A stretch of DNA of 38,751 nucleotides, from positions 1 to 38,751 of IMG/VR virus record IMGVR_UViG_3300017782_000065. One strand, written 5' to 3'. The notes below the pieces were generated by a model. That model saw nothing but the letters and a program-made list of their open reading frames with translations. It made no database searches and was not told where the DNA came from. Numbering within the stretch: the stretch's first letter is position 1; every line of letters begins with the position of its first letter. The translations under genes were made by a program, and so were the position numbers. Shown in pieces: positions 5,512 through 33,949 of the stretch. The DNA is from a virus.

Positions 5512-6352
5512 CGTAAGCAAAAAATCGTTCAAGCCCCCGAAGGGCGTCCAGAGCAACGCCAAGCGCGGCCTGGAGATGCGTGAGAGGTATGGTCGAGGCG
5601 GCCTCTCGACGCAAGAGGCGGGCCGTCAGGGCATCCGGTCGGGTGTGGCGCGGGCTCGTGATCTTGCGAATGGCAAGAGCCTGTCACTGGCGACCATCCG
5701 CCGGATGCGGGCATTCTTCGAGCGTCACGAGCGCAACAAGGACAGCCGCACGGAGTCTGGTGAGCCGGGAGCGGGAATGATCGCTTGGCTATTGTGGGGC
5801 GGCGATGCCGGTCGCCGTTGGGCAAACGGGGTGCTTCGTCGAGAAGGGGTGCTCAAGTCCGATGACGATATCTTTGGCAAGGATTGCGCTAACGAAGAAT
5901 CAGATTGGACAACCTTGGTGGAAGATGATAAGGTAGCAGCCACTGCTGATGAAATGACTGACTCATTTCAACTCAACTGCAAAGTCGCCAAGGTTCATGA
6001 AGAACTTGGCCTTGTCTTTGGCTGGGCTATTATCTGCAAAGAAATGGGTCAGCCGTACTTCGACCTTCAAGGTGATCACATCCCTGAACTGTCTATGCTC
6101 AAGGCGACAACGAAGTTTGCCAAAGGTGCGCGAGTCGCCAGGGAGATGCACGTCGCTGGTGATCGCGGTACTGTCGTCTTCATGCTTCCGTTTACCGAAG
6201 AGATTGCCAAGTCTCTCGGCATTCAAAACCCTGACCGCACGGGTCTGATCATCGGCATGGCCCCAGACTCTAGGATGCTTGAGAAGTTCAAGTCAGGCGA
6301 GCTTCAAGGCTTTAGTATTGGTGGCAAGCGAATCAAGGACACCCCTGCATGA
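5504..6352 (+). CDS. XkdF-like prohead protease with extra N-terminal domain
   Basis: The product has 282 residues in two parts. Residues 10-112 carry a small helical module with LEMRERYGRGG, GVARARDLANGKSLS, IRRMRAFFERH and IAWLLWGGDAGRRWAN, found in many phage proteins near prohead proteases. Residues 155-280 match the XkdF-like protease domain: FGWAIICKEMGQPYFDLQGD, REMH (His 216) and the closing GFSIGGKR (Ser 271), the likely His and Ser catalytic pair. The protease would cleave scaffold and capsid precursors during maturation. The usual C-terminal continuation with an EIS-VD-PA motif is absent here and appears at the start of the next gene, which overlaps by four bases (ATGA). Catalytic residue choice is by family logic. 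Confidence 0.7.
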   Translation: MNDVSKKSFKPPKGVQSNAKRGLEMRERYGRGGLSTQEAGRQGIRSGVARARDLANGKSLSLATIRRMRAFFERHERNKDSRTESGEPGAGMIAWLLWGGDAGRRWANGVLRREGVLKSDDDIFGKDCANEESDWTTLVEDDKVAATADEMTDSFQLNCKVAKVHEELGLVFGWAIICKEMGQPYFDLQGDHIPELSMLKATTKFAKGARVAREMHVAGDRGTVVFMLPFTEEIAKSLGIQNPDRTGLIIGMAPDSRMLEKFKSGELQGFSIGGKRIKDTPA

Positions 6353-7947
6353 CTAGACAGCGCATCATGGAGGAGTTTGAGCTGGAAGAGATCAGCGGTG
6401 TTGATTTCCCGGCTCAGGCTCACGCCAAGGTAACTATTCTCAAGCGTTACTTAGACGAGGAGGACGAGGAGAAGGGCTACGACTACAAGGCGGACGATCC
6501 TCCCGGTACAGGTCGTCGCGGAAGTGATCGCAACCCTGAAGGGTCTGCAAGCAGTTCGCGCGGCGGTATCTCAATTAGCGACTCCGTTGAGACGGCACTG
6601 AAGAACAAAGTCAGTGACCACAACGACGGCAGCGATCGAAAGGTCACGCTGGGGATGCTGAAGGCGGTCTACCGTCGAGGTGCGGGAGCGTACTCCACCA
6701 GCGCCCGTGCCACGTCGCGCAACCAGTGGGCGATGGCTCGCGTCAATGCCTTTCTGCATCTGGTGAAGACGGGCTCGCCCAAGAACTCCAAGTACACCAC
6801 GGATAATGACCTGCTGCCCAAAAGCCATCCTCGCGCCGCCAAGGGCGAGGAGACGATGAAGCGCCTTCCGGCTCCTCGCGACGGCGAGTCACGCAAGGAC
6901 TTCGTTAGCAGATTCATGGCTGACGAGGAGGCGCGTAAAGAGTTTCCCGACGCAGACCAAAGAACTGCGGTCGCTGATCAGCAGTTTCGTGCGGACAGCA
7001 CGGAGAAGCGATCGGCGTTCTATGTGCTCTCCGCTGTCAACGGTCATTCTCATCTCATCCAGATGGATGAAGAGGGTGGCCAAAGCTCTCACAACCAAGC
7101 CCACGATGATGAAATGGGTCACTGTCATCCGTGGGTTCTGAACGAAGACGGGAGTGTGACGATCGGCATGTCTGATGGGCACACTCACGAAGTACGTATG
7201 ACCCGATCGTCTGATTCTGATTCCGCCGGTTCTGATGCCGGTTCCAAAGGTCGAACTGAGGAAGAAACCATGACCAAACAAACCGAAACCGTCAACGAGC
7301 AGGCGGTCGATCAGCAGCTTGATGCCCTTCGGGCCGAGTTGCAGCTCGCCAAGGCGTACGGTCAACTGACTGACGCTCAGAAAGTGTTTGCCAGTGATCT
7401 GGCTGAGGGTGACGAGCGCGATGCGTTCGTCACCAAGTCCGATGACGAGCGCCAGCGTCTTGTCGAGAAGGCGCAGGAGGCCGATCCGGTCGCCTATGCC
7501 TGTATCGACGGCACGGAGATCCGCAAGAGCGCGGGCGATCTGGTGATCCGTCTTGCCAAGCAGGCCGACGAGGCAACTCGTGAGCTTGCTGTCGAGAAGG
7601 CCGCCCGTGCCGACGAACTGCTTGCCAAGCGTGCCGAGACAGAGCTGGGCAGCCTTCCTGGCGACGATGTTGCCAAGTCTGCGCTGCTTCGTGCGGTGGA
7701 CACCATCGCTGACGAGGCTGTTCGCAGCTCTGTGTGCGAGATCTTGAAGGCAGCCAACGAGCGCGGGAGTGCCGCTTTCAAGAGCCTGGGCACTGCTGCC
7801 AAGTCTGCCTCTGCGGTTGACGCGGAAACCAAGCTCGCCGATCTTGTCAGCAAGCGTGCTGAGGAGACTGGCGAAACTAGTGACAAAGCCCTCTTTGCGG
7901 TTCTGAGCACCGCCAAGGGTCGTTCTCTTTATGCTCAGACCCGCTGA
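6349..7947 (+). CDS. Multidomain capsid assembly / scaffold protein
   Basis: The product has 532 residues in clear segments. Residues 7-33 contain EEISGVDFPAQAHAKVTILKR, which normally ends XkdF-like proteases. Residues 74-157 hold a helical module (VETALKNKVSDHN, TLGMLKAVYRRGAGAYSTS, NQWAMARVNAFL, DNDLLP) common in phage proteins of this position. Residues 174-213 carry SRKDFVSRFMADEEARKEFPD, followed by a His-rich patch with three G-H-x-H motifs (232-235, 257-260, 277-280). From residue 308 the chain is long, charged and helical, typical of a scaffold. An internal ATG with a good ribosome binding site could make that part alone. The decoration and major capsid genes follow directly. Function is inferred from layout. 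Confidence 0.6.
   Translation: MTRQRIMEEFELEEISGVDFPAQAHAKVTILKRYLDEEDEEKGYDYKADDPPGTGRRGSDRNPEGSASSSRGGISISDSVETALKNKVSDHNDGSDRKVTLGMLKAVYRRGAGAYSTSARATSRNQWAMARVNAFLHLVKTGSPKNSKYTTDNDLLPKSHPRAAKGEETMKRLPAPRDGESRKDFVSRFMADEEARKEFPDADQRTAVADQQFRADSTEKRSAFYVLSAVNGHSHLIQMDEEGGQSSHNQAHDDEMGHCHPWVLNEDGSVTIGMSDGHTHEVRMTRSSDSDSAGSDAGSKGRTEEETMTKQTETVNEQAVDQQLDALRAELQLAKAYGQLTDAQKVFASDLAEGDERDAFVTKSDDERQRLVEKAQEADPVAYACIDGTEIRKSAGDLVIRLAKQADEATRELAVEKAARADELLAKRAETELGSLPGDDVAKSALLRAVDTIADEAVRSSVCEILKAANERGSAAFKSLGTAAKSASAVDAETKLADLVSKRAEETGETSDKALFAVLSTAKGRSLYAQTR
7258..7264 (+). promoter_or_regulatory. Shine-Dalgarno for the internal scaffold start
   Basis: GAGGAAG lies five bases before the internal ATG at 7270 inside the scaffold gene. 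The strength and spacing are those of a true start, not a chance methionine codon. Confidence 0.5.
7270..7947 (+). CDS. Nested scaffolding protein from an internal in-frame start (candidate)
   Basis: ATG at 7270 lies in frame with the 532-residue gene (codon 308) and is preceded by GAGGAAG at 7258-7264, five bases from the start, a better ribosome binding site than that of the parent gene. The 225-residue product would be almost entirely charged helix, with MTKQTETVNEQ at its start and Ala/Glu/Lys-rich heptad-like stretches, as scaffolding proteins are. This mirrors lambda, where the scaffold Nu3 is read from inside the protease gene C. Whether this start is used is not shown by sequence alone. 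Confidence 0.5.
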   Translation: MTKQTETVNEQAVDQQLDALRAELQLAKAYGQLTDAQKVFASDLAEGDERDAFVTKSDDERQRLVEKAQEADPVAYACIDGTEIRKSAGDLVIRLAKQADEATRELAVEKAARADELLAKRAETELGSLPGDDVAKSALLRAVDTIADEAVRSSVCEILKAANERGSAAFKSLGTAAKSASAVDAETKLADLVSKRAEETGETSDKALFAVLSTAKGRSLYAQTR

Positions 7948-8364: not shown

Positions 8365-9351
8365 ATGAAATTCAACCAGCCGGTCAAGAAGGCCCAACCG
8401 ACGCCTAGCGCGGTTCACGTCGATCGCACGCTTACCAACATGAGCGTGGCGGTCATGTCCGAAGAGGGCTTCATCGCTGATGCGGTGTTCCCCGCTATTC
8501 CGGTCAACAAGCAGTCCGACCTGTATCGGACATACGATCGCGGCTCGTTCCAGCGGGACGAGATGAACAAGCGCGCTCCGGGCGCTGAGTCGAGCACCAT
8601 CGGCTACAGCACTTCGACGACTCCGTACTTCGCCGATGTATATAGCCTCGCTGTGGACATCGATGAGCAGACGGAGGAGAATGCTGATGATGAGGTGGAT
8701 CTTGATCTTGAGGCCACCATGCTTCTGGCACAGGCAGCTCGCATCAACCGCGACCGCAACTGGGCCAGCACCTTCTTTGGCGCAAGCATCTGGACGGGCG
8801 AGGAGACGCTTTCTGGCAACGATCAGTTCAGCGACTACACCAACTCAGACCCGCTGGAGAAGATCGAAGAGAAGCGCGTGGATATGATGGAGCTGACGGG
8901 CTTTGCCCCGAACACCGTCGTCATGGGTCCGCGCGTGTGGCAGCAGCTCAAGAACCACCCGGACCTCGTTGACCGCCTCAATCGCGGTCAGACCAGCGGC
9001 CCGGTCAAGGTTTTGCAGCAGAACCTTGCCGAGCTGCTTGAGGTGGACCGCATCTTTGTTCCGTCCGCGATCTACAACGCGGCGGGCGAGCAGGCTACCG
9101 ACGACTTCGACTTCCTGTACGGGAAGAACCTGCTGATGATGCACGTTCCGGAGCGTCCGGGCCGCTACACCCCTGCGGCGGGCTATACCTTCGCGTGGCA
9201 GGGCTTCTCTGGTGCTTCGGCTGCTGGTACTCGCGTCAAGCGATTCGAGATGCCGCACACCTCGTCGCGCCGCATCGAGATCGAGTCGGCGTACGACCAG
9301 AAGGTCATCGCTCCTGAGCTTGGCTCGATCATCATCGACGCTGTTGCCTGA
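8365..9351 (+). CDS. Major capsid protein, HK97 fold (inferred)
   Basis: The product has 328 residues, a normal size for a coat protein without a delta domain. It opens with a typical ILTNMSVAVMSEEGFIAD-like segment (ADAVFPAIPVNKQSDLY follows), then the E-loop region with ERAPGAES-like sequence, a spine helix with LEATMLLAQAARINRDRNW, and the A-domain stretch ELTGFAPNTVVMGPRVWQQLKNHPDLVDRL. The C-terminus contains AGYTFAWQGF, SRRIEIESAYDQKVIAPELG and a final strand. GGAGG lies nine bases before the ATG. It follows scaffold and decoration genes, as expected. The next ATG overlaps its stop by one base. Confidence 0.85.
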   Translation: MKFNQPVKKAQPTPSAVHVDRTLTNMSVAVMSEEGFIADAVFPAIPVNKQSDLYRTYDRGSFQRDEMNKRAPGAESSTIGYSTSTTPYFADVYSLAVDIDEQTEENADDEVDLDLEATMLLAQAARINRDRNWASTFFGASIWTGEETLSGNDQFSDYTNSDPLEKIEEKRVDMMELTGFAPNTVVMGPRVWQQLKNHPDLVDRLNRGQTSGPVKVLQQNLAELLEVDRIFVPSAIYNAAGEQATDDFDFLYGKNLLMMHVPERPGRYTPAAGYTFAWQGFSGASAAGTRVKRFEMPHTSSRRIEIESAYDQKVIAPELGSIIIDAVA

Positions 9352-9635
9352 TGTCGGTTGCTGATCGCAGGGCGCCCTTCAAGGTGCGGACGTTTGCCGT
9401 CCTCTACCCCTTCCGCTACGGCGGTCGGCGGTACGAGGTCGGAGGTACGTTCGGCACGCGAGGGGACGTGCCTCGTCACCGTCTGGACAAGCTCTGGCGT
9501 GACGGCTGCATCGGCATGGCAGACGGCAGTTCTCCTGTCGTCGAAGAGCAGCCTGAAGAGCCTCCGGTGATCGAAGAGGTCATCGAGGAGCCCGTTGTCG
9601 AAGAGCCCCTCTTCGGAGAGGACTTGGAAGACTGA
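9351..9635 (+). CDS. Small conserved phage protein with acidic C-terminus
   Basis: The product has 94 residues. The first 60 form a basic, Arg- and Gly-rich part with VRTFAVLYPFRYGGRRYEVGGTF, and a run ending in LDKLWRDGCIGM; the last 35 are strongly acidic with repeated Glu-Glu-Pro/Val units. Small proteins of this kind with a GxRYxxGxxF core often lie between the capsid and connector genes. The role is not known; a head-associated or adaptor role is inferred only from place. It overlaps both neighbours by one base (TGATG at each end). Confidence 0.6.
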   Translation: MSVADRRAPFKVRTFAVLYPFRYGGRRYEVGGTFGTRGDVPRHRLDKLWRDGCIGMADGSSPVVEEQPEEPPVIEEVIEEPVVEEPLFGEDLED

Positions 9636-10036
9636 TGACTGACCGCTCAATCCGTGTCGTCGTGAGTGATCTCGATGCGTTCACAACGAAGTTCATCAAG
9701 CGCCTCGCGCTGAACATCAACGCTGAACTCATCAAGGCTACTCCCGTCGATACGGGCTGGGCGCGTGCCAACTGGGTGCCCAACATCGGCAGTCCTTTCG
9801 AGGGCACCGCAGGCACCAGGGCCGACGCCGAGGCAGGCGGTGTAGATACGGCTGCCCAGCAAGCGGGGCTTGCCGAAATCGCGACCACCTACAAAACAGG
9901 TCCGACTGTCCATCAAACGAACAACGTACCGTACATCGAACTACTGAACGCGGGCAGCTCCAAGCAAGCGCCTTCTGCTTTTGTTCAGTCGTCGATTTTC
10001 AAGGCGGTACGGCAAACGGTCTCGAATACCCGATGA
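9635..10036 (+). CDS. HK97 gp10-like neck / tail completion protein
   Basis: The product has 133 residues. Hallmarks are a basic helix (DLDAFTTKFIKRLALNINAELIKATPVDTGWARANW) in which VDTGxARxNW is the family signature, and a conserved end with VHQTNNVPYIELLNAGSSKQAPSAFVQSSI. Proteins of this type act at the head-tail joint or on the tail terminator side. It precedes the tail terminator gene with a four-base ATGA overlap, the standard order. Confidence 0.75.
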   Translation: MTDRSIRVVVSDLDAFTTKFIKRLALNINAELIKATPVDTGWARANWVPNIGSPFEGTAGTRADAEAGGVDTAAQQAGLAEIATTYKTGPTVHQTNNVPYIELLNAGSSKQAPSAFVQSSIFKAVRQTVSNTR

Positions 10037-10446
10037 CGCCCGACGAGCTGCGTAAGGCTGTGTATGACAGGTTCTATGCGAACTGGTCGTCCACGAGCTA
10101 CGTGCATTACGAGGGGCATCCGTTTACCGAGCCCGCGCCGGACGCGCAGTGGGTGCGTCTCAGCGTACAAAACACCGGAGGCGGTCAAACGACTCTCGGA
10201 GCGATAGGAAGTCGAAAGTACGAGCGTAATTTTTCCATCTTCGTCCAAGTGTTTGTGCCAGCAACGGGAGGCATGAAGACGGGGGCCGTACACGCGCAAA
10301 CAGCTCGCGCCATTTTTGAGGGGGTGCGTCTCAACGATGAGGCGTACCTCAACGACGGGCTGATCAACGAGCTGCCCGTTCGAGATGGTGAAAAGTCCCG
10401 TCAGATCAACGTCGAAGTTTTCGGTAAGTACCTGGAAACCAAGTAA
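10033..10446 (+). CDS. Tail terminator / tail completion protein (gpU-like)
   Basis: The product has 137 residues. The pattern (a helix RKAVYDRFYANW, then VHYEGHPF, QWVRLSVQNTGG, RKYERNFSIFVQVFVPATGG, a helix AQTARAIFEG, and short closing strands INVEVFGKYLE) is that of small tail terminators which cap the tail tube and bind the head connector. It lies between the gp10-like gene and the tail tube gene, as expected. Identification is by pattern and order. Confidence 0.65.
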   Translation: MTPDELRKAVYDRFYANWSSTSYVHYEGHPFTEPAPDAQWVRLSVQNTGGGQTTLGAIGSRKYERNFSIFVQVFVPATGGMKTGAVHAQTARAIFEGVRLNDEAYLNDGLINELPVRDGEKSRQINVEVFGKYLETK

Positions 10447-10463: not shown

Positions 10464-11939
10464 ATGGCAATCGTAAAGACCAACAACATTTCTTTCGCGT
10501 ATGCGATTGAAGACTCGCTAAAGACGCTGCCGGGATCGCCGACATGGTACATCCTGGAGCCCAACGACATCACGACCTTCGGTGCGACCATCACCACCGT
10601 TGCTCGTGAGCCTATTTCCAAGGACCGTGGTCGCCGCAAAGGCACGGTAACGGACCTTGAGAGCGCGACCGAGTTTGAGCACGATCTCACCCTCGACGCT
10701 TTTATTGCGTTTGCCGAGGCGTTCGCGTTTGCCAACTTCAAGGGCGACACGATCGAAACTCCCACAAACGTAGCTGCTTCGACCGACACCTATACTGTTG
10801 GCTCAGGTCCGACTCTGGAAGCAAACCAGCTCGTCTTCGCGCGTGGCTTTGCCAACTCGGCGAACAACGGTATCCACGAAGTGGCGTCGGGCACTGCGAC
10901 GACTGTTGTGGTGACGAGTTCCCTCACGAACGAGACGCCGCCCGCCAACGCGCTATTGGAGACTGCTGGTCTTCGCTTCGAGACTGGCGAGCTGGCAATC
11001 AGCGTCAGCGCCGGGGTGGCTACGCTGACCTACTCGGCCAGCACCAGTTCGATCGGCGCACTCAGTGGCTACATCGAGGTGGGCCAAGTGATCCACGTTG
11101 GAGGTGTCACGTCTGGACGCCAGTTCAGCGCGGGTGCTGGGTACGGTCGAGTGACTGCGGTGGACAACACCACGATCACTCTTGACAAACTCGACAGCAA
11201 CCTTGCCACGGATCCCGGCACGGGTGAGACGGTGGATGTCCTTTTTGGACGGTTCCTCAAGAACGTCGATGTGGACGACGCGGACTTCCTAGAGCGGAGC
11301 TTCCAGTTCGAGGCCGCGTACCCGGACCTTGATAGCGTGGGCACCGACGAGTACGAATACTCTGTGGGCAACCGCGCCAACACGATGGCGATTGCACTGC
11401 CGCTTGCCGACAAGTCCACCGTGACCTTCGGCTTTGTGGGTGCCGACACTGAGACGCCTACGACTACGCGCAAGACGAACGCAGGCAGCGCCGTGGATCC
11501 GGTCCAGACGACCGCATTCAACACTTCGTCGGATATCGCTCGTCTTCGTCTGGTTCAGGACGCCACTGGCCTGACGACGTGCTTCAAAGACGTGACGCTG
11601 ACGCTGAACAACAACGTCACGCCCGAAAAGTGCTTGGGCACTCTGGGAGCCTTCGCTCTCAACACCGGCATCTTCCAGGTGGACTTGGAAGCGCAGGTTC
11701 TCTTCACCAACTCGGATGTCGTCACGGCGGTTCGCAACAACACCACGGTCACGATAGACTTCATCATTACCAACGACAACGGGGCTGTCGCCTTCGACAT
11801 CCCTTCGATGACCATCGGCGGCGGTGACAAAGAGTTTCCTGTGAACGAGTCGGTGCTGATCAACCTGAGCGGTCAAGCGTTCCAGGATCCCACATTTGGG
11901 ACCTCGATCGGGATCAGTCTGTTCCCGGTCGTTCCCTGA
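10464..11939 (+). CDS. Major tail tube protein
   Basis: The product has 491 residues. It opens with strands in NISFAYAIEDSLKTLPGSPTWYILEPND and the diagnostic AREPISKDRGRRKGTVTDLES, then EFEHDLTLDAFIAF, as in the larger phage tube proteins. A central insertion (about 95-260) contains Ig-like or beta-rich segments and probably decorates the tube surface. The C-terminal part has FKDVTLTLNNNVTPEKCLGTLGA and FQVDLEAQVLF, then strands that pack into the tube. It would polymerise around the tape measure. A long GC-rich hairpin follows the gene. Confidence 0.8.
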   Translation: MAIVKTNNISFAYAIEDSLKTLPGSPTWYILEPNDITTFGATITTVAREPISKDRGRRKGTVTDLESATEFEHDLTLDAFIAFAEAFAFANFKGDTIETPTNVAASTDTYTVGSGPTLEANQLVFARGFANSANNGIHEVASGTATTVVVTSSLTNETPPANALLETAGLRFETGELAISVSAGVATLTYSASTSSIGALSGYIEVGQVIHVGGVTSGRQFSAGAGYGRVTAVDNTTITLDKLDSNLATDPGTGETVDVLFGRFLKNVDVDDADFLERSFQFEAAYPDLDSVGTDEYEYSVGNRANTMAIALPLADKSTVTFGFVGADTETPTTTRKTNAGSAVDPVQTTAFNTSSDIARLRLVQDATGLTTCFKDVTLTLNNNVTPEKCLGTLGAFALNTGIFQVDLEAQVLFTNSDVVTAVRNNTTVTIDFIITNDNGAVAFDIPSMTIGGGDKEFPVNESVLINLSGQAFQDPTFGTSIGISLFPVVP

Positions 11940-12003: not shown

Positions 12004-12432
12004 ATGCAGTTCCGCAACTTCTCCGACTCCGAGCAAGTCACTCGGCAGTCTACGACACGATACGAGTTCTTTTCTCTGGAGTACGAGCTGGAAGACGGCT
12101 CGACCATGGTTCCGTGGGTGGAGGTTCGCCCCGTGGGCGAAATCAACCGCCCATACATCAACGCGGTCCTCGCCCAGCAGGCGCGGAATCGTCGGCGTCT
12201 GACGAAGGGCAAGATCGACGCCCGGATGCTTGAGGAGAACCGCGAGCAGGATCGCGAGCTGTACCCCAAGTACGTGATGACGGGCAACTGGGGCGGGTGG
12301 CTCGACGACGAAACGGGCGAGGAGGTGCCGTACTCGGAAGACGCCGCGCGTGAGCTGCTGACTCAGCTTCCGATCGACGAGTTTGACGAGCTTCGCGCCT
12401 TCTGCAACGAGCTGCACAACTTTCGATCCTGA
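12004..12432 (+). CDS. Tail assembly chaperone, upstream frame (lambda gpG analogue)
   Basis: The product has 142 residues. It lies between the tube and tape measure genes and overlaps the next reading frame, the position of lambda G. Its sequence begins with short strands (YEFFSLEYELEDGSTMVPWVEVRPVGE), followed by charged helices (RRRLTKGKIDARMLEEN) and an acidic end with LPIDEFDELRAFCNELHNF. Such proteins coat the tape measure before tube assembly. The leader CCCCAACCCCACC before the ATG has no Shine-Dalgarno, so expression may be low. Ribosomes that shift frame before the stop would make a longer fusion. Confidence 0.7.
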   Translation: MQFRNFSDSEQVTRQSTTRYEFFSLEYELEDGSTMVPWVEVRPVGEINRPYINAVLAQQARNRRRLTKGKIDARMLEENREQDRELYPKYVMTGNWGGWLDDETGEEVPYSEDAARELLTQLPIDEFDELRAFCNELHNFRS

Positions 12433-12871
12433 CGCCCTGGGGGCGGAAGACATCGAGGCAGTGCAAGAGCGCCTCGTGCAGTACCTTCGCTGGGAGCTGC
12501 GGTATCAGCGCGATGGGCACTCCATCGAAACGCTGCTAGATCGCGGAGTGGCCTACAGCAGTTTGCCAGAGTGGTATCGCGAAGAGCCAGAGCTGGAGAG
12601 CTGGGACCTGTTCTACCACAACGCTTTTTGGCGTCTCTCCACGGAGCGATCCGTGGGCTTCGCCATGGGTCCAATCCCGCATAGCAAGATCCTATCATAT
12701 GGCTATGACGCAGGACTCGACTCAAGTACAATGACGTTGTTCGAGGCGGTGGTTCGGCACATGGACTCTGCCTACGTCGAATGGTCGTCTGAACAGCAGA
12801 CGAAGGCCCGCAGAGCAAACTCCCAGCCCGAGATTCCGGTTGGCCGTAACAAGACCAAGAAGCCTAGATGA
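12362..12871 (+). CDS. Tail assembly chaperone, frameshift extension (lambda T analogue)
   Basis: This frame is open from 12362 to 12871 and overlaps the end of the first chaperone gene by about 70 bases. Its only start in the overlap is a TTG at 12383 without a good ribosome binding site, so the natural route is a ribosomal frameshift of +1 (or -2) from the upstream frame. The extension contains ALGAEDIEAVQERLVQYLRWEL, LPEWYREEPELESWDLFYHNAFW and a basic end RNKTKKPR. This is typical of second chaperone segments that bridge tape measure and tube. A fusion made by skipping base 12424 would have 288 residues. Confidence 0.7.
   Translation, partial: LSFRSTSLTSFAPSATSCTTFDPDALGAEDIEAVQERLVQYLRWELRYQRDGHSIETLLDRGVAYSSLPEWYREEPELESWDLFYHNAFWRLSTERSVGFAMGPIPHSKILSYGYDAGLDSSTMTLFEAVVRHMDSAYVEWSSEQQTKARRANSQPEIPVGRNKTKKPR
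12421..12432 (+). promoter_or_regulatory. Candidate programmed +1 frameshift site
   Basis: In the upstream frame the codons are TTT CGA TCC TGA. If the phenylalanine tRNA slips from TTT to TTC, it keeps perfect pairing, CGA (a codon slow in many bacteria) is displaced and translation enters the downstream frame as GAT CCT GAC. The site lies four codons before the stop. Another possibility is slippage at TCC TGA C, or a -2 shift farther upstream. Confidence 0.4.
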
Positions 12872-15800
12872 CTGACTTTCGCATCAACGTCATCATCGAC
12901 CCGAAAGGGGCCGCTGCGGGCACCAGGGTCGTCGAGCGCCAGCTTGGGCGTGTGGAGTCGAAGGCTAACAAGGTCCAGTCGGCACTTCGCAAGGCGTTTG
13001 CTGGGCTGTCGATCGCTTTTGCGGTCAAGGAGATCACGCAATTGGCAGATGCGTTCACGGATCTGCAAAACAGGCTCCGGTTGCTGGTGCCGGAAGAGGT
13101 TCTTCTTGTAAAGACGACGCGCGATCTGCTGAAGGTCGCCAGTGAGACTCGCACCGCCTTTGAGGGTACAGTGATCTTGTATCAGCGCCTCGGCCTCGCC
13201 ACGAGGGAGCTTGGCATCGACGGCGGTGACTTGGTCAGTATTGTCAAGTCGATCAACCAGGCACTTATCTTGTCGGGTGCGTCAGCGAAAGAGGCCAACA
13301 ACGGCCTGATCCAGCTTTCGCAGGGCATCGCGGCCAACCGTCTTGGCGGCGATGAGCTTCGTTCGACGCTTGAGCAGCTTCCTGCTGTTGCCGACGTGAT
13401 CGCCAAGCAACTAGGTATTACTCGTGGGGAGCTGCGGATTTTGGGCGCAGAGGGCAAGATCACGGGCGGCGTCATTATTGAAGCCTTCCGCAACGCGAAG
13501 GATGAGCTGGAAGAGCAATTTGGCAGGACTGTCCCCACGCTTTCGCAAAGTCTCACCGTTCTGAAAAACAACCTAACGGTCTTCTTCGGCGAGCTAAACA
13601 AAGGCACGGGCTTGCTTCAAGGCTTTGGAGCGGCTATCCGCTTTGTTGGCGAAAACGTTGACACGCTGGCGCGCAGCCTCGTGGTGCTGGGCAGCACGTT
13701 TGCTGCTCTTCGACTGGCTCCCACTGTTCAGGCGTTCTTTGAGCTACGGGCCGCTGTGAAGGCAGGCAGCGTAGTGATCCTTGGGTCGGCGGAAGCGGCT
13801 CGACAAAAGGCGATCTTCGATCGAGATCAGGCGACTGCTGCACTGACGGCTGCTGGTGCAGAAGTCGAGAAAACCAAGACAACCATCGCCAGTACCGAAG
13901 CTGATGTGGCAGCGTCTGCTGCCACTGCTCAACGACTGGCGGCGGAACAGGCCAAGTTGGACATTCAACTACTGGGCTCACAGGCAAACCTGCAAGCAGC
14001 CCAGACGGGCTTGGCGCAGGCGCAGGCAGAGCGGGCCAACATCGCGACCTCTGGCACGCTGGCAGACCTGCGAGAGCGTATTGCCGTCGCGGACGCGAGC
14101 GTTGCGTCAGCTCGCAGAGGTGTGCTGGTTGCCACAGAGCAGGCATCTGCCGCAGAGGCTCGTCTTGCTGCTGCAACAAGCGCGTCAGGGAAGGCAGCGG
14201 ATGCTGCTTTTGCAGCGGAGGCTCGGCTTGCCAAGGCGCATACGTCGGCTGCCGCCGCCGCCACGGCCCAGGCGAGTGCCGAAACGCGACTCGCCACTGC
14301 CACGACTGCCGTGAACGCTTCGGCCAACATCTTTACCAGGACGCTCGCCAAGGTCAGAGCGGCGGTGCTTGCAGTGAACGCAGCCATCGTCGCCAACCCG
14401 ATTGGTGCGATCGTGGTGGCGCTGACCGCCGCGATTTCAGCGCTAGTCGTTTTCCGCGACAGAATCAAAGTTGCAGGCGACGGCGTGACGACACTGGGCG
14501 ATCTCTTCCAAGCCGTGTTCGCAAAGATCAAAAAGGTCTTTACGTCCATCTTCGACGTGATCAAAGGGGTGTTTAGCAAATCGTTTGAGTTCGTAAGGTC
14601 TTTTGTCGGCGAGTTTGACCTTAGCTTCAAAGACGTGGTTAGTGCTGTTGCAAGCTACCTTGACACGCTGTACGGTACTTTCTTTGCGTTGTTCAGCTTC
14701 CTTGGCAGCCTTGTTGGGAACGTGCCCGGTGTGTTTGATAACGCTTTCCGAAAAGCTGTCAATGTCGTCATTGGTGCGCTTGAGGCGATCCCTCGCGTTC
14801 TTTTGGCGATCGTAAAGACGGCATCGGGGGTCCTAGGCGACTTTCTCAAGGGCGTGCTTATTGCCGTGACTAAGGGCAGCGAGGCGATTGACGCTTTGTT
14901 CGACAGAGACTTCAGCAAAGCCAAAAGATTTGCTTTGGAGGCGGGCAATGCGCTTGCGGAGGGTCTTGAAGAAGCCCAGGCCGATATTGGTGATCGGTTC
15001 GCAGATAGCTTGGAGGACAACTTTTTCAAAGGTATCGTCCCTCGTCTTGCAGAGCCTGCAAGCAAAACCTTTAGCGAGATTGCCAAAGAAGCAACAACTG
15101 CGTTTGGCAAGACGTTTGAGGAGTTCTCGTTCTTTGGTGACATTGTTGATGGAATCTTCGCGGATGCTAAAGAGATCGCAGATAGACGGCTCAAGGATCT
15201 AAAGCTGGACGAAGCGAACAAGGCGCGTGATGCAGCGGCAGCGGCGGCAGCGAAGCAGGCTACAGAGGTGAGCAAGGTCACGCAAGCTCTTCGAGATGAG
15301 CAAGCCGTCTTGGAGACGACGCTGGCGCAGGGCCGTGTCGAGGCGCAAATCAAACGCGAGATCCTGGCCCTCAACAATCAGTTGAGGGAATCAGGGCAGG
15401 GTTCGTTGACCCCCGAGCAAGAAAAAGAGATCGCGGGACTTGTCAGGCGCAACGATCTTCTCAGTGAGTTTATTCAGCTTCAAGAAGAACTGGTGGATCC
15501 GCAAGAGCAACTTATTGAAAGACAGCGGTTGCTTACTCTTGCCATGTTCAACGGGGCGATCACTCTTGAGCAGTACCTAGAAGGACTGAGAAGGGTCAAG
15601 CTCGAACAGGCCGAGATGGGCACTACGGTCGCTGATGGTCTGGTTACCGGGATGCAGAAGGTCTCGGAGACGCTGAATGACGTGGCCTCCCTCGCGCAAA
15701 ACGCTTTCGTCAATGCGTTTAGCGCAGCGGAAGATGCGCTAGTGTCCTTTGCTACGGGTGGCTCCGTGACCTTCAAAGAGTTCGCTGCGAGCCTGATCAA

Positions 15801-16245
15801 GGACATCGCCCGGCTCGTGGCGAGACTTCTTCTACTTCGGGCGATTCAAGCTGCCGCTGGACTCGGCGGCCCAGTCGGTAGCTTCTTCGGGGATCTGGCT
15901 ACCTTGGGTGCGCCTGACGCTGCCGCCACGGGTTCGGCGATGGCTGTCGCCAACAAGCCGTTCCTCGTGGGCGAGGAAGGACCGGAGTTGTTCACGCCGG
16001 GCCAGACGGGTAGTATCACACCGACCGACCAGACCATCGGTGCTCTGGCAAGCGCCAGCTCTGCTCAGGGGCAAGTCATCGTCGTCCAGGCCCCCGCGCC
16101 TGAAGTGAACGTCCAAGTGGTCAACGTCGATTCGCCCGACGCCGTTCGCAGCGCGATGGACACTGACGACGGCGCACAGGTCATCCTCAACCAGATCCGA
16201 CGAAACCGCTCCGCGATCAAGCAAGAACTAGGCGTACTGGGCTGA
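12868..16245 (+). CDS. Tape measure protein
   Basis: The product has 1125 residues, the longest complete protein here. Residues about 60-270 form the tape-measure N-terminal domain with NQALILSGASAKEANNGL, RLGGDELRSTLEQLPAVAD and GITRGELR. Residues about 300-490 are a long Ala-rich coiled coil. A hydrophobic stretch around 495-530 (AIVANPIGAIVVALTAAISALVVF) may insert in the host membrane at infection. Further helices follow, and the C-terminus carries the motif FLVGEEGPELFTPGQTGSI. Using the common rule of about 0.15 nm per residue, the tail would be near 170 nm. It overlaps the chaperone by four bases. Confidence 0.95.
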   Translation: MTDFRINVIIDPKGAAAGTRVVERQLGRVESKANKVQSALRKAFAGLSIAFAVKEITQLADAFTDLQNRLRLLVPEEVLLVKTTRDLLKVASETRTAFEGTVILYQRLGLATRELGIDGGDLVSIVKSINQALILSGASAKEANNGLIQLSQGIAANRLGGDELRSTLEQLPAVADVIAKQLGITRGELRILGAEGKITGGVIIEAFRNAKDELEEQFGRTVPTLSQSLTVLKNNLTVFFGELNKGTGLLQGFGAAIRFVGENVDTLARSLVVLGSTFAALRLAPTVQAFFELRAAVKAGSVVILGSAEAARQKAIFDRDQATAALTAAGAEVEKTKTTIASTEADVAASAATAQRLAAEQAKLDIQLLGSQANLQAAQTGLAQAQAERANIATSGTLADLRERIAVADASVASARRGVLVATEQASAAEARLAAATSASGKAADAAFAAEARLAKAHTSAAAAATAQASAETRLATATTAVNASANIFTRTLAKVRAAVLAVNAAIVANPIGAIVVALTAAISALVVFRDRIKVAGDGVTTLGDLFQAVFAKIKKVFTSIFDVIKGVFSKSFEFVRSFVGEFDLSFKDVVSAVASYLDTLYGTFFALFSFLGSLVGNVPGVFDNAFRKAVNVVIGALEAIPRVLLAIVKTASGVLGDFLKGVLIAVTKGSEAIDALFDRDFSKAKRFALEAGNALAEGLEEAQADIGDRFADSLEDNFFKGIVPRLAEPASKTFSEIAKEATTAFGKTFEEFSFFGDIVDGIFADAKEIADRRLKDLKLDEANKARDAAAAAAAKQATEVSKVTQALRDEQAVLETTLAQGRVEAQIKREILALNNQLRESGQGSLTPEQEKEIAGLVRRNDLLSEFIQLQEELVDPQEQLIERQRLLTLAMFNGAITLEQYLEGLRRVKLEQAEMGTTVADGLVTGMQKVSETLNDVASLAQNAFVNAFSAAEDALVSFATGGSVTFKEFAASLIKDIARLVARLLLLRAIQAAAGLGGPVGSFFGDLATLGAPDAAATGSAMAVANKPFLVGEEGPELFTPGQTGSITPTDQTIGALASASSAQGQVIVVQAPAPEVNVQVVNVDSPDAVRSAMDTDDGAQVILNQIRRNRSAIKQELGVLG

Positions 16246-24819: not shown

Positions 24820-26280
24820 GTGAAGTTCAAGACCACCCCCTACGCACACCAGCTCGACGAGTACCGTCATTCCTGCGAACTAGAGTCCCGTGGGCTCTTC
24901 TGGGAGATGGGGTGCGGCAAGACCAAGCCGTGCATCGACACCGCCGCGCACCTCTACGAGAAGGGCGCAATCCGTGGGCTCCTCGTCCTTGCGCCCAACG
25001 GCGTCCACCGCAACTGGGTGGTGGACGAGCTACCGACGCACATGCCCGACGAGGTTGCGTCCCAGATGCGCGTCATGCACTGGATGACCTCGAAGGCGGG
25101 CAACAAGGCCCACGCCGACGAGGCCGCAGCCGTGCTCGCCCACGATGGGCTCTCCGTGGTGTGCATGTCGTACAACGGCATCATGACGGACAAGGGCGCG
25201 AAGTTCATCAAGCGGTTCGTCGATGACCGCCAGTGCATGGGCGTGCTGGACGAGTCGCCCTACATCAAGTCGCCGGGCGCGAAGCGCACGAAGCGGATCT
25301 TGGCGCTGGCGAAGTACCTGCCCTACCGACGCATCCTCACGGGCACGGTCGTCGATGACAAGCCGTTCGATGTCTACACCCAGATCAAGTGGCTGGACGA
25401 GAGCGCCTGGAACAGCGTCGGCTGCGGCGACTACTCGGCGTTCAAGGCCACGTTCGGCGTCTGGCAGACCCGCCAACTGGGCAACGGGAGGCAGTTCCCC
25501 GAGCTGATTCGCTTCCGTAACCTCCCGATGCTGAACGAGGTTGTGACGAAGTACGGGTCTCGGCTTCTGAAAGAAAATGTACTGGACCTGCCTCCGAAGC
25601 TATACTCGAAACGCTACTTTGAGTTGACCCCCGCCCAGTGGCGGGCCTACACTGACCTGCGCGACGAGATGCTGACCTGGATCGACGGTCAGCCGATCAC
25701 CGCCGCGCTCGCGATCACCATGCGCCTTCGCCTCCAGCAAGTCACGTCGGGCTACCTGCCCACCGAAGACCCAGACACGGACGAGCAGCAGCTTGTCCCG
25801 TTGGGCGACAAGAACCCACGGATCGACGCCCTGCTTGACGTGATCAGCGAGGCGGACGGCCAGCAAGTGATCGTCTGGGCGAAGTACCGCTACGACATCG
25901 ACCACATCCTCGCGGCACTCCGCGAGGCCAAGATTGACGCCGTTCGCTACGACGGGCAATGCACTGAGTCCGAAGCGGGCGAAGCGGTCGATGCCTTCAA
26001 GGCTGGAGATGCGCGCGTCTTCGTCGCCAACCCAGCCAAGGGCGCGGAGGGCATCACGCTCACCTGCGCGAAGACCGTCGTGTACTTCAACAACAGCTAC
26101 AAACTCTCGAAGCGCCTTCAGTCCGAGGACCGCGCTCACCGCATTGGGCAGGAGCACGCCGTCCAGATCATCGACCTCTGTGCCCAGGACACGGTGGACG
26201 ATCAGATCATCAACGCACTGCGAACCAAATACGAGATGGCAGCCACCGTCCAGGGCGATGAGCTGCGAAACTGGATTTGA
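24820..26280 (+). CDS. SNF2-like / superfamily 2 helicase
   Basis: The product has 486 residues from a GTG start. Domain 1 has Walker A WEMGCGKT (residues 28-35), motif Ia LVLAPNGVHRNW (55-66), motif II DESP in place of DEAH (144-147) and motif III LTGT (173-176). Domain 2 carries VIVWAKYRYDI, RVFVANPAKGAEGITLTCA and motif VI QSEDRAHRIGQ (434-444), the SNF2 signature. It is shorter than cellular remodellers and like the compact phage versions. It probably moves on double-stranded DNA to remodel forks or remove bound proteins, or supports recombination. It is the first gene after the terminator and leads the replication block. Confidence 0.85.
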   Translation: MKFKTTPYAHQLDEYRHSCELESRGLFWEMGCGKTKPCIDTAAHLYEKGAIRGLLVLAPNGVHRNWVVDELPTHMPDEVASQMRVMHWMTSKAGNKAHADEAAAVLAHDGLSVVCMSYNGIMTDKGAKFIKRFVDDRQCMGVLDESPYIKSPGAKRTKRILALAKYLPYRRILTGTVVDDKPFDVYTQIKWLDESAWNSVGCGDYSAFKATFGVWQTRQLGNGRQFPELIRFRNLPMLNEVVTKYGSRLLKENVLDLPPKLYSKRYFELTPAQWRAYTDLRDEMLTWIDGQPITAALAITMRLRLQQVTSGYLPTEDPDTDEQQLVPLGDKNPRIDALLDVISEADGQQVIVWAKYRYDIDHILAALREAKIDAVRYDGQCTESEAGEAVDAFKAGDARVFVANPAKGAEGITLTCAKTVVYFNNSYKLSKRLQSEDRAHRIGQEHAVQIIDLCAQDTVDDQIINALRTKYEMAATVQGDELRNWI

Positions 26281-26281
26281 C

Positions 26282-26833
26282 ATGATTCACAACTACTCCG
26301 ACTACAGCGACGGGCCTACCGTCGATCAACTTGGCAAGATCACCGATGCGGTAGATGCCTACCTCGACGCCCAAGTGGACGCCGCGAAGGCCGAGGCCGA
26401 ATACAAGGAGCGCATGAAGCGCGTTCGCCACTACGAGGAGCACCTGATCCCCGAGGCCATGCGCGAGGCTGGGATGGCCGAGTTCACCACCACGTCGGGC
26501 TACAAGGTGAAGATCAAATCCGACGTGCGAGCCTCGATCCCCAAAGCTCGCGAGAGCGAGGCGTTCCGGTGGCTGGAGGGCAACGGCCAAGGCGGCCTGA
26601 TCAAGCGCACGGTCGAGGTTGCCTTCGCTATGGGCGAGGATGACAAGGCCCAGCAGCTCATGGAGGAGCTGCAAGCACAAGACATGAGCGTGGGCGCTCG
26701 CCGCAAGGTAGAGTCCAGCTCTCTGCGGGCGCTGCTGCGGCGGCTGCTTGCCGACCCGAGCAACCGGGTCCCGATGGACATCTTCGGCGCGTCTACCTAC
26801 GACAAGGCCGAGGTGAAGTCACCGAAGAAGTGA
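26282..26833 (+). CDS. Conserved phage protein in replication block
   Basis: The product has 183 residues from the ATG at 26282; longer frames upstream lie inside the helicase gene. Residues 20-60 are a charged helix (DAAKAEAEYKERMKRVRHYEEHLIPEAMREAG), followed by FTTTSGYKVKIKSDVRASIPK, FRWLEGNGQGGLIKRTVEVAF and a C-terminal ALLRRLLAD and PMDIFGAS. This layout is known from uncharacterised phage proteins lying beside replication genes. It may be a replication accessory or nucleic-acid-binding factor. No catalytic motif is visible. It overlaps the helicase stop region and is followed by a 57-base gap. Confidence 0.65.
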   Translation: MIHNYSDYSDGPTVDQLGKITDAVDAYLDAQVDAAKAEAEYKERMKRVRHYEEHLIPEAMREAGMAEFTTTSGYKVKIKSDVRASIPKARESEAFRWLEGNGQGGLIKRTVEVAFAMGEDDKAQQLMEELQAQDMSVGARRKVESSSLRALLRRLLADPSNRVPMDIFGASTYDKAEVKSPKK

Positions 26834-26890
26834 CGCGGCTCACCGCACCGCCAGCCGTAAAAGTGGGCGCTGCATAACCCTGATTTTGAC

Positions 26891-27727
26891 ATGACACCCA
26901 AAAAAACTGCTGCGACCAAGGCGGTCGCCACTTCCTCTTCCACTGGCGCCATGGTGATGCCGTTTGACTTCGGCGAGATGGCTGGGGAGGGTATGGAGAA
27001 CATGACCGCAGCCGATCAGGCTGTGCCGTTTATCCGCATCCTTCAGGCGCTTTCCCCTGAGGTCGCAAAGAAGGACAGCAAGATCCCCGGCGCGGAGCCG
27101 GGACTCATGCTCGACACTGTGACCCGCGAGCTGCACGAGGACATCGTGATCGTTCCGTGCATCACCGAGCACCTGTACGTCGAGTGGCGTCCTCGCAGCC
27201 AAGGCGGCGGCTTGGTCGGTCGCCGTGGGCTTCACGACCCCGTGGTTGCCCAGTGCAAGAAGAACGAGAAGGGCCGTCTCATTACCCCCGAAGGGCATGA
27301 GCTGGTTGAGACGTTCTACCTCGCGTGCATGACGCTCGCAAACGCGGACGACACGGTGCCCGCTGGCTTCGCCATGCTTGCGTTTACCTCGTCGGGCATC
27401 CAGCCCTACAAGAAGTCGATTGGTGAGCTGCGGAAGTTCCCCGATGCTCCGCTGTTCGCTCACCGGCTGCGCGTCAGCACCGATGAGCAGTCCAACAGCG
27501 AAGGCACTTGGTACAACTGGGTGCTGCGCCCAGTCAACCAGCCCGAAGGCGATCCGGTCTTCCGCAACGGTGTGCTGCCGTCGCTGATTGACCCGGATGG
27601 ACCGCAGGCGGCTCTGCTCGACGCGGCACGGAACTTCAAGTCTGACGTGATGGCGGGTTCTGCAAACATCGCCTACGACTCGCAGGACGACGGCGCAACG
27701 GTCCGCAGCGACGACACTGTTTTCTGA
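26891..27727 (+). CDS. Conserved phage protein, possible ssDNA-binding-like factor
   Basis: The product has 278 residues. After a low-complexity Lys/Ala/Thr start come PFIRILQALSPEVAK, GLMLDTVTRELHEDIVIVPCITEHLYVEWRPRSQGGGLVG, ETFYLACMTLAN and a Asp-rich end (SQDDGATVRSDDTVF). A central fold of short strands with an acidic C-terminal tail is reminiscent of T7 gp2.5-like ssDNA-binding proteins, but the similarity is only of general design. The same type of protein is found between helicase and polymerase genes in other phages. The gene has no clear Shine-Dalgarno. Confidence 0.6.
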   Translation: MTPKKTAATKAVATSSSTGAMVMPFDFGEMAGEGMENMTAADQAVPFIRILQALSPEVAKKDSKIPGAEPGLMLDTVTRELHEDIVIVPCITEHLYVEWRPRSQGGGLVGRRGLHDPVVAQCKKNEKGRLITPEGHELVETFYLACMTLANADDTVPAGFAMLAFTSSGIQPYKKSIGELRKFPDAPLFAHRLRVSTDEQSNSEGTWYNWVLRPVNQPEGDPVFRNGVLPSLIDPDGPQAALLDAARNFKSDVMAGSANIAYDSQDDGATVRSDDTVF

Positions 27728-27741
27728 GACTACGTTTCCAA

Positions 27742-27774
27742 GCTGCTAGGCAGCCGAGGGGGTGAGAGGCCCCC
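27742..27774 (+). other. Two tandem short hairpins in intergenic gap
   Basis: In the 75-base gap before the Dda-like helicase gene lie two inverted repeats: GCTGC/GCAGC (27742-27754, three-base loop) and GGGGG/CCCCC (27758-27774, seven-base loop). No T-run follows. They may pause RNA polymerase or set mRNA stability; function is not shown. Confidence 0.35.
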
Positions 27775-27802
27775 GCCCACTTCGTTTCTCATTGGTGTAT
27801 AG

Positions 27803-29002
27803 ATGACACATTCTTGGTCGCCCCGACAAGAACAGGCCATCCAAGGAGTCCGCTCGTGGCTTCAAGATGGTGATCAACAGGTCTTTCGCCTCTTCGGCTA
27901 CGCCGGTACAGGCAAAACGACGCTTGCCCAGCACCTCGTTTCAGAGGTATCTGGGCCAGTCCTATTTGGCGCATACACGGGCAAGGCCGCGCTCGTCTTG
28001 CAGTCCAAGGGGTGCGCCAACGCGATGACCATCCACCAGATGATCTACCTGCCGCGTGAGCGCAGCCAGGAGCGTCTGGCACAGCTCCAGGCCGACCTGA
28101 ACGCGGAACAGGACGCCGACAGGAGGCGCGAGATTGCTGTCGAACTGGCCGAGGAGAAGGACAACCTCAAGCGGCCCACGTTCACGCGCAACCTAGAGTC
28201 TCCCGTGCTCCACGCCAGCCTCGTCGTGCTCGATGAGGTGTCGATGGTCGGCAGGCAGATCGCCGAGGATCTGCTGGAGTACGGCACGCGCATCCTCGCG
28301 CTGGGCGATCCCGCCCAGCTTCCCCCAGTCAAGGATGGCGGGTACTTCACCGACGCGCAGCCCGACATCATGCTGACGGAGATTCACCGGCAGGCAGAGG
28401 GCAGCCCCATCGTCAGCATGGCAACCTCCGTACGGAACGGCGAGCGCATCGCCTATGGCAGCTACGGCGACTCCAGGGTCGTAGAGAAGGGAACCCTGGG
28501 CATCGAGGAGCTGGCGGCTCACGACCAGATCATCGTTGGGCGCAACGCCACGCGGCGCACGATCAACCACTTGATTCGCAAGACTGTCAAGGGCTTTGCA
28601 TCTGGGCTGCCGGTGGCGGGCGACAAGCTGGTCTGCCTTCGCAACAATCGCAACAGCGGACTTTTGAACGGCTCACAATGGATCGTGGACGACTGCGAGA
28701 TTCTGGATGACGACCGGATCAAGCTGTGGGTGCGGTCGTTCGACAGCGCTGATCCATACACCTTCGATGTGGTAGCCTTTCGGCACTACTTCGAGGACCG
28801 GCAGGACGAGATCCCGTTCTATGAGATGCAGGAAGCCGAACATTTTGACTTTGGCTACGCCGTCACCTGTCACAAGGCCCAGGGGTCTCAGTGGGGCAAG
28901 GTGGCGATTGTCAACGAGTCGCACTGCTTCCGCGAACAGTCGTCGAAGTGGCTGTATACGGCTATTACTCGCGCCGCCGAGCGCCTGACCTTGATTCAAT
29001 GA
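27803..29002 (+). CDS. Dda / RecD2-like superfamily 1B helicase
   Basis: The product has 399 residues. Walker A is FGYAGTGKTT (31-40), motif II LDEVSMVG (143-150), motif III LALGDPAQLPPV (165-176), and the C-terminal motifs are VTCHKAQGSQWGKVAIV and YTAITRAAERLTLI. Length and motifs match phage Dda and the core of RecD2, 5'-to-3' helicases. A charged coiled coil (about 85-125) fills the space between motifs I and II. It probably unwinds DNA at replication origins or helps displace proteins. It overlaps the next gene by four bases. Confidence 0.85.
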   Translation: MTHSWSPRQEQAIQGVRSWLQDGDQQVFRLFGYAGTGKTTLAQHLVSEVSGPVLFGAYTGKAALVLQSKGCANAMTIHQMIYLPRERSQERLAQLQADLNAEQDADRRREIAVELAEEKDNLKRPTFTRNLESPVLHASLVVLDEVSMVGRQIAEDLLEYGTRILALGDPAQLPPVKDGGYFTDAQPDIMLTEIHRQAEGSPIVSMATSVRNGERIAYGSYGDSRVVEKGTLGIEELAAHDQIIVGRNATRRTINHLIRKTVKGFASGLPVAGDKLVCLRNNRNSGLLNGSQWIVDDCEILDDDRIKLWVRSFDSADPYTFDVVAFRHYFEDRQDEIPFYEMQEAEHFDFGYAVTCHKAQGSQWGKVAIVNESHCFREQSSKWLYTAITRAAERLTLIQ

Positions 29003-29241
29003 GCAAGCCTGAACTGAAAGTTGTCCTGGGTCGTTCGCCCATGGATACGAAGGTGCTTTACGGCAGCGTTGACCTTACCCAGGCGCTCTGTATCAGAAGC
29101 ATCTATGTCCAACCCGTCTGTGCTGACCAACAGGACACCACGAAGGTCACTATGACCATTACGCCCGGTGTCGTCGAGATCGACACCGACCACCCGCAGC
29201 TCGTCATCGACGGGCATACATTCAACCTCATCCCCGAGTAA
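28999..29241 (+). CDS. Small protein of unknown function
   Basis: The product has 80 residues from the ATG at 28999 in an ATGA overlap with the helicase stop. It has several hydrophobic strands (KVVLGRSP, SVDLTQALCIRSIYVQPV, KVTMTITPGVVEIDTDHPQLVIDGHTF). It may be a small beta protein. I do not recognise it. It lies directly before the ribonucleotide reductase gene and could be cotranslated with it. Confidence 0.5.
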   Translation: MSKPELKVVLGRSPMDTKVLYGSVDLTQALCIRSIYVQPVCADQQDTTKVTMTITPGVVEIDTDHPQLVIDGHTFNLIPE

Positions 29242-29251
29242 CCCTGATCCA

Positions 29252-30955: not shown

Positions 30956-31476
30956 CGGAGGTTACCCCGATGTCTACACTTGTTCAGAGGTTGCGTGAGG
31001 CGTCTAAAGTAGAGCGGTCGCACACGATGCCGCATCACGGCAGCTATACGGTGGGTCAGCATTCGTTCGACATGCTAACTCTTCTGGTCGCGCTATATCC
31101 CGACTGCTCGAAAGAGCTAATGGTCGCGGTAATGTATCACGACCTAGCGGAGCGATGGACAGGAGACATTCCGCAGCCCGCCAAACTGTCGGACGGAGAG
31201 TTCGGAAAGCGATTGGCACAAGTCGAGGCTCGCGTCTCGAAGCGTTTGGGCTGGACTGTGCAGCTCGACGAGCGAGATCGATTCTGGCTGATGGGCCTTG
31301 ATGCCGTCGAGTACCACCTTTGGGCGAAGGAGCAGATTGCCATGGGCAACCAGAACGCCCAGACAGCTCTCGCGAAGACGATTGTGTGGCTCCAGAACAA
31401 CCGCATCCCGATTGAGCTTGCGGATTTCGTGAACGAACACGTTTGGACGCGCACCCCTGACGAGTTTCCCTCCTGA
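30952..31476 (+). CDS. HD-domain phosphohydrolase (YfbR-like nucleotidase family)
   Basis: The product has 174 residues from the ATG at 30952 (ATGA overlap with the reductase stop, GGGAGAG upstream). Candidate metal ligands are His37 (VGQHSFDM), His63-Asp64 (MYHDLAERWTGD) and Asp117 (GLDAVEYHLWAKEQ), the set used by YfbR-like 5'-deoxynucleotidases and by phage DatZ dATP hydrolases. RSHTMPHHGSYT precedes the first ligand; Arg22 is at the place of the YfbR phosphate-binding Arg, but the adjoining Trp is Ser23. It probably removes phosphate from a deoxynucleotide. Its place between reductase and polymerase genes fits dNTP pool control. Substrate cannot be read from sequence. Confidence 0.8.
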   Translation: MTEVTPMSTLVQRLREASKVERSHTMPHHGSYTVGQHSFDMLTLLVALYPDCSKELMVAVMYHDLAERWTGDIPQPAKLSDGEFGKRLAQVEARVSKRLGWTVQLDERDRFWLMGLDAVEYHLWAKEQIAMGNQNAQTALAKTIVWLQNNRIPIELADFVNEHVWTRTPDEFPS

Positions 31477-33476: not shown

Positions 33477-33949
33477 TCCTGTCGGGACAGAGCATCCGAA
33501 AGCGCGGCATTTTCACGCCGTTCAACGAACGCACCCATCACAACGGGATGTCGTATGGACTCTCGATGGCCGGATACGACGTGCGCGTCGCCTTGGACGG
33601 GCTCGAAGACAAGATCACGCTGTATCCGGGCGACTTCATCTTGGCCGTGACCAAGGAGCACTTCGATATGCCCAGCGATGTGCTGGGCATTGTCCACGAC
33701 AAGAGCACCTGGGCGCGGCAGGGCATCGCCGTGCAGAACACGGTGATCGAGCCCGGCTGGAAGGGCTATCTCACGCTAGAGCTCACCAATCACGGCGCAG
33801 AGGCCATCGTGCTTGCATCGGGCGACCCTATCGCGCAGATTGTTTGTCATCAGCTCGATGAACCCGCCGAGCAGCCGTACGACGGCAAGTACCAAAACCA
33901 AGAAGACACCCCGCAAGAAGCGAGGTTCGAGCACACAAACGGAGAATGA
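33473..33949 (+). CDS. dcd: dCTP deaminase / dUTPase-family protein
   Basis: The product has 158 residues. GYDVRVAL, DVLGIVHDKSTWARQGIAVQNTVIEPGWKGYLTLELTN and the end GKYQNQED match the deaminase family; Glu103 in LTLELTN and the S-x-x-A-R region (Arg82) correspond to the catalytic and substrate-binding residues. It converts dCTP to dUTP (or directly to dUMP) and so feeds thymidylate synthesis. No thymidylate synthase or separate dUTPase is in the window. It overlaps the polymerase gene by four bases. The gene symbol names the family; bifunctional versus single activity is not resolved. Confidence 0.8.
   Translation: MILSGQSIRKRGIFTPFNERTHHNGMSYGLSMAGYDVRVALDGLEDKITLYPGDFILAVTKEHFDMPSDVLGIVHDKSTWARQGIAVQNTVIEPGWKGYLTLELTNHGAEAIVLASGDPIAQIVCHQLDEPAEQPYDGKYQNQEDTPQEARFEHTNGE

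Follow-up and report, generated by a model that had tools for sequence, protein, structure and literature searches.

A tail chaperone pair with a displaced second frame

How does a phage produce the second half of its tail assembly chaperone when the frame encoding that half lies +1, and not -1, relative to the first? Tail chaperone frameshifting is among the most widespread recoding events and is mostly of the -1 kind, and an earlier note on the locus studied here had rightly pointed out that its downstream frame is +1 (or -2) relative to the upstream one. The locus belongs to a viral stretch of 38,751 nt (IMGVR_UViG_3300017782_000065; this whole stretch is hereafter called the window) that carries a tailed-phage structural module around the G/T pair (Table 1). 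Two ORFs are found between the tail tube and tape measure genes, their G and T domains are homologous to known tail chaperones (phrog_313, phrog_3817, PF23812), and the T frame, which opens after a TGA (12359-12361), overlaps the end of G without a conserved start of its own, as in lambda-type pairs. We take the two genes for the tail chaperone pair of a tailed phage, probably of the G/GT kind. The part that such a pair would play, i.e., the G/GT ratio in tail assembly, is already known biology.

Table 1 Features of the G/T locus and of the structural module around it (positions in the window)
Feature	Position	Strand	Evidence or remark
Major capsid protein	8365-9351		
Neck/tail completion protein	9635-10036		
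Tail terminator	10033-10446		
Tail tube protein, directly 5' of G	10464-11939	+	PF18906 Phage_tube_2 (E 3.1e-27); phrog_290
G-type tail assembly chaperone ORF, 142 aa, zero frame, stop TGA 12430-12432	12004-12432	+	phrog_313 (E 2.7e-9); between tail tube and tape measure genes by match of neighbours to families
T-type tail assembly chaperone frame, +1/-2 relative to G	12362-12871	+	phrog_3817, tail chaperonin (E 8.9e-23); Pfam PF23812 Phage_TAC_18 (E 4.4e-11)
G/T frame overlap	12362-12432	+	71 nt in the window, 38 nt in L001-L004
Run of 33 nt with no difference between the window, L116 (contig of L003) and L118 (contig of L002)	12402-12434	+	three-way alignment
TTT CGA, proposed site of the +1 slip (Phe tRNA in the P site would move from TTT to TTC, with CGA in the A site)	12421-12426	+	re-pairing test
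TCC TGA C around the zero-frame stop; antizyme-like UCC_UGA, a rival or helper of the proposed site	12427-12433	+	partial re-pairing only
Tape measure protein, directly 3' of the T frame	12868-16245	+	phrog_3336 (E 6.4e-114); PF20155 TMP_3

Outside this module, positions 24820-36728 of the window hold a replication and nucleotide block (SNF2-type helicase, Dda-like helicase, ribonucleotide reductase large subunit, HD-domain YfbR-like nucleotidase, DNA polymerase A and DUF5906/RepB-like primase), and two adjacent genes at 25934-27727 match the Pfam families Pam3 gp33-like (PF23984) and Pam3 gp34-like (PF23977). The start called for the first of these two ORFs is a TTG that lies within the helicase gene, and an ATG near 26283, just past the helicase stop, looks like the true one. 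An open frame of 925 aa (3-2780) runs off the start of the window and has no PHROG or Pfam match at 1e-3. No phage-borne tRNAs and no Rfam matches were found.

Relatives of the pair

Four viral contigs (L001-L004) carry relatives of G (87-92% protein identity) and, on the same contigs, of T (78-86%). They represent two further distinct sequences, both of which keep the +1/-2 relation, and the evidence on this clade comprises three distinct sequences, i.e., that of the window and these two. Given that both ORFs match tail-chaperone families in those very frames and that the arrangement is kept in four other contigs, it is not a product of chance. In the relatives, the T frame opens only 35 nt upstream of the G stop codon (the overlap in Table 1 includes the stop), thus the shift must fall within the last dozen G codons. 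The earlier note had regarded an overlap of about 70 bases as bounding the site well; the length is right for the window, but the bound was understated, as the relatives set a tighter one.

No further members of the clade came up when the G protein, the T protein, the two wide alignments, a 3-row G alignment or a 16-mer served as the query. The 16-mer retrieved 18 stretches, four of them known clade contigs (L001, L116-L118), and the other 14 (L112-L115, L119-L128) had no chaperone match. Searches of other collections returned a single relative among genomes (L129, of the -1 kind), a single distant protein match among plasmids, to the T part, and no DNA-level match among phages.

A candidate slip site at the end of G

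In the window, G ends with CAC AAC TTT CGA TCC TGA, followed by C. Every zero-frame codon of the overlap was examined for +1 and -2 re-pairing in the three distinct sequences, and complete +1 re-pairing was found for TTT to TTC only, in all three. This bears out the earlier suggestion that TTT C would allow the Phe tRNA to slip with full pairing; the TTT (12421-12423) had been placed four codons before the stop and is in fact the third. The sequence has the marks of the UUU_CGN class, i.e., UUU_C with CGN in the A site, inside the overlap and ahead of a downstream +1 frame, and not those of the -1 X_XXY_YYZ class, as T is +1/-2 and no such heptamer is present in the overlap of the three clade sequences. 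We consider it probable that programmed +1 frameshifting at UUU_CGA, like that of influenza PA-X, gives rise to a G-T fusion. Most ribosomes would terminate at the TGA at 12430 and release G; in a minority, the Phe tRNA on UUU (12421) would occupy the P site with CGA waiting in the A site, move one base forward from UUU to UUC, and decoding would go on in the +1 frame into the fusion. By analogy with lambda gpG and gpGT, G and GT could then cover the tape measure protein and bring in the subunits of the tail tube.

The phenylalanine of the candidate slip site belongs to a conserved NF with which the G domain closes. At this position, 83 of 90 -1 homologues have F, encoded by TTT in 15, by TTT followed by C in 2 and by TTT followed by CG in 1. 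The earlier note had proposed comparing the site in relatives, and TTT CGA is present in all three clade sequences together with the +1 relation. Over an alignment of ca. 10.4 kb, DNA identity is 75% between the window and each of the two relatives and 73% between the relatives, and the identical stretch at the site (Table 1) ranks fourth in length among 1,967 runs shared unchanged by all three; two of the three longer ones are in the major capsid gene and one is at 7462 in the ORF 6349-7947. Among the three sequences, 87 sites vary in the first 133 codons of G, whereas the last 10, which include AAC TTT CGA TCC TGA, are invariant. If the residues of CNELHNFRS are taken as identical, the probability that all nine codons are identical too is 0.007, as the product of codon identity rates from elsewhere in the aligned genes; the slip site was named before this test, but the exact stretch was picked after viewing the alignment, thus the value provides moderate support.

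In-frame TTT CGA occurs once among the 12,322 codons of 34 window ORFs, at this very site, and given that ca. 1.6 occurrences are expected from codon frequencies (176 TTT; CGA 9.3 per thousand), its uniqueness alone says little. A rare A-site codon was considered as a stimulator and rejected, since CGA, which makes up 14.6% of the Arg codons, is not rare in this phage, and a pause at CGA is therefore an assumption of the model. In E. coli, a frameshifting error on argI mRNA is reportedly a +1 shift at a UUU. Some support for an upstream UUU promoting +1 shifts in E. coli is also described in PMC9458425.

Inspection of the three sequences revealed no Shine-Dalgarno-like element next to the slip site, and their downstream folds were not clearly stronger than those of shuffles (z of -0.47, -1.56 and -0.93, for pseudoknot-free folds), with one compensatory pair among 34. 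An upstream fold in L003 (z -2.32) was rejected as a stimulator, as it is not common to the other two sequences (1.64 and -1.02). A possible hairpin (GAGGCGGUC...GAGCCGCCUC in L001) lies ca. 25 nt 3' of the G stop, at 12454-12476 in the window; the three sequences show one compensatory pair in it, and it is weaker in the window.

Other routes to the T product

The modelled fusion is 288 aa long, and its junction is the HNFDPDALG (HNF from G, DPDALG from T) that the earlier note had correctly anticipated for a slip at TTT C. It matches phrog_8233 with 56.6 bits across the junction (residues 103-277 to profile positions 91-263, with near-equal spacing), compared with 14 and 39.2 bits for the halves alone. 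Should T be translated separately instead, by an internal start or by termination-reinitiation and with no fusion made, the GTG at +46 past the G stop would be a candidate, as it is present in all three sequences and is the only start shared before the conserved T core; moreover, Shine-Dalgarno motifs are weak throughout this phage, so that an absent one is not decisive. However, no T-frame ATG, GTG or TTG before +46 is common to the three sequences, the first of any kind appearing only at +46 in L001 and at +43 in L003, and separate initiation is disfavored on this ground. The linker codons upstream of the GTG are also conserved as protein in the clade (EDIEAVQ), and 9 of the 16 variable sites in this linker are third T-frame positions, a mild signal suggesting that the T frame is translated there as well. 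Homologues at the same locus carry -1 heptamers, and a separate T would leave the invariant last 10 codons of G without explanation. We find this route improbable. A slip at the end of G on UCC_UGA is another candidate: UCC stands directly before UGA, as at the common antizyme-type +1 site (PMC10885494), TCC TGA is kept in all three clade sequences, and as there are only three sequences, identical there, conservation does not separate UUU_C from UCC_U. UCC_UGA is a live rival or a helper of UUU_CGA, but a move from UCC to CCU leaves a first-position mismatch, the PA-X experiments described in PMC3498833 argued against UCC_U slippage, and antizyme is described as having a downstream pseudoknot (PMC10885494), whereas no strong downstream fold was found here among pseudoknot-free ones; that this site acts in place of UUU_CGA appears unlikely, if less so than a separately made T.

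A -2 slip would lead to the same frame, and phage Mu is described as decoding its chaperone in this way (PMC5009743), but in all three sequences every codon of the overlap falls short of complete -2 re-pairing, which makes such a slip very improbable here. The linker residues of the -1 homologues were tried as an arbiter between NF-DPD and NF-RSD and proved too variable. Single-base errors are, in general, frequent in draft viral contigs, and an assembly or sequencing indel might disguise a -1 or in-frame arrangement as +1. This would, however, have to hold both for the window and for four contigs that bear four different IMG sample numbers, i.e., for three distinct sequences at ca. 73-75% DNA identity, all of which also lack the -1 heptamer, and we give it hardly any credence. 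The reading that we favor is the +1 slip of the Phe tRNA at UUU_CGA.

Direction of the shift across the family

Profiles of G and T (7 rows each) were run on the fetched loci, i.e., viral contigs, phages and one genome contig, the phage records being 14 fetched from among those that match G (88 records) or T (225 records). The 16-mer loci L112-L128 (of which L116-L118 are re-fetched clade contigs) had been left out beforehand, L022 and L136 were dropped for having no G match, and identical G-T regions were counted once, giving 95 distinct regions. A -1 shift is needed in 92 of them, in line with the earlier statement that most tail chaperone shifts are -1, and a +1/-2 shift in three, which are the clade of the window only. 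An X_XXY_YYZ heptamer in frame with G is present within the overlap of 90 of the 92 -1 regions, and in 85 of these 90 the heptamer closest to the stop is AAAAAAC or GGGAAAC. The position differs too: the -1 homologues slip beside the T domain, mostly ca. 10-20 codons after NF, whereas the candidate site of the clade is at NF and its linker lies in the T frame.

Two -1 homologues (L068 and L074) have no such heptamer in the overlap and may use another kind of slip site. In the records of RDJL Phi 2 (L006), RDJL Phi 1 (L130) and Erythrobacter phage ZS04 (L137), only the G chaperone is annotated, and the T frame before the tape measure gene has no gene of its own.

The fused proteins were placed in a tree of 93 rows, 89 of them different (L068 and L074, which have no heptamer, were left out), in which the three +1 rows form one clade (100/100). 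The neighbours of this clade are the -1 rows L013, L017-L019, L040, L049 and L050, with a weak wider grouping (82/69) and a long clade branch (1.14), in an unrooted tree whose bootstrap had not settled. A single change of direction is the simplest reading, and the 92 of 95 regions, along with the -1 rows surrounding the clade, suggest -1 as the ancestral state. We lean towards a reversal of frameshift direction within one gene family, in which the heptamer was lost and a +1 site of the UUU_CGN class at NF came to the rescue. The lineage would descend from relatives with a -1 slip at AAAAAAC or GGGAAAC, and an indel would have shifted the T frame relative to G.

What is new here is the apparent reversal of direction within one homologous family, together with a candidate UUU_CGN-type site in a phage. 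If true, the conserved trait would be the G:GT ratio and not the mechanism, and a direction-switched clade among -1 homologues would be a natural experiment in which the product ratio was kept and the mechanism let go. A phage UUU_CGA site would extend the class from viruses of eukaryotes to bacterial ribosomes and could also serve as a learning case for frameshift-prediction tools; PRFect, as described, accepts its +1 'three' and 'four' motifs only if the A-site codon of the +1 frame is the more common of the two.

Comparison with known systems

Tailed phages are described as using -1, -2 or +1 shifts for the tail chaperone gene, with -2 in Mu and very likely +1 in HSTV-2 (PMC5009743; the latter also in PMC8211752). 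Our literature search, which took in few subscription papers and did not extend to the 2004 survey by Xu, Hendrix and Duda that founded the field, found no phage chaperone site of the UUU_CGN type. This +1 class was proposed from influenza PA-X and from viruses of insects and plants, and the use of similar motifs elsewhere was left open there (PMC3498833, Firth et al. 2012).

The pair in the window resembles lambda gpG/gpGT and the -1 chaperones of siphophages in its position before the tape measure gene, in its G and T domains and in the short product with a trans-frame fusion (PMC5009743), the fusion being predicted here, and its homologues have AAAAAAC or GGGAAAC, the latter as predicted for KL1 (PMC3483164). 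It differs from them in being +1, in lacking the heptamer and in a putative junction that falls at the closing NF of the G domain and not next to T. With HSTV-2 and Mu, compared by description, it shares the frame relation and the role of the gene (PMC5009743), although Mu uses -2. Shifts to +1 near a stop codon are also described for phage tail genes in SPP1 gp17.1* (PMC6316719), the lactococcal 936 phages (PMC4759559) and the tail shaft of Listeria PSA, A118 and A500; these have a proline CCC directly before the stop (CCC_UAA, CCC_UGA or CCC_UAG) and concern tube proteins, not chaperones. Ornithine decarboxylase antizyme shares the UCC_UGA at the end of G, but no strong downstream structure was found in the window, which has a better candidate slip site two codons upstream. 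The candidate site itself resembles UCC_UUU_CGU of influenza A PA-X, as described in PMC3498833: in both, the P site holds UUU_C, a CGN codon is in the A site, and the Phe tRNA can re-pair in full. Unlike PA-X, the site in the window would act in a phage and on a bacterial ribosome, with CGA in place of CGU, AAC in place of UCC in the E site and a stop codon two codons later.
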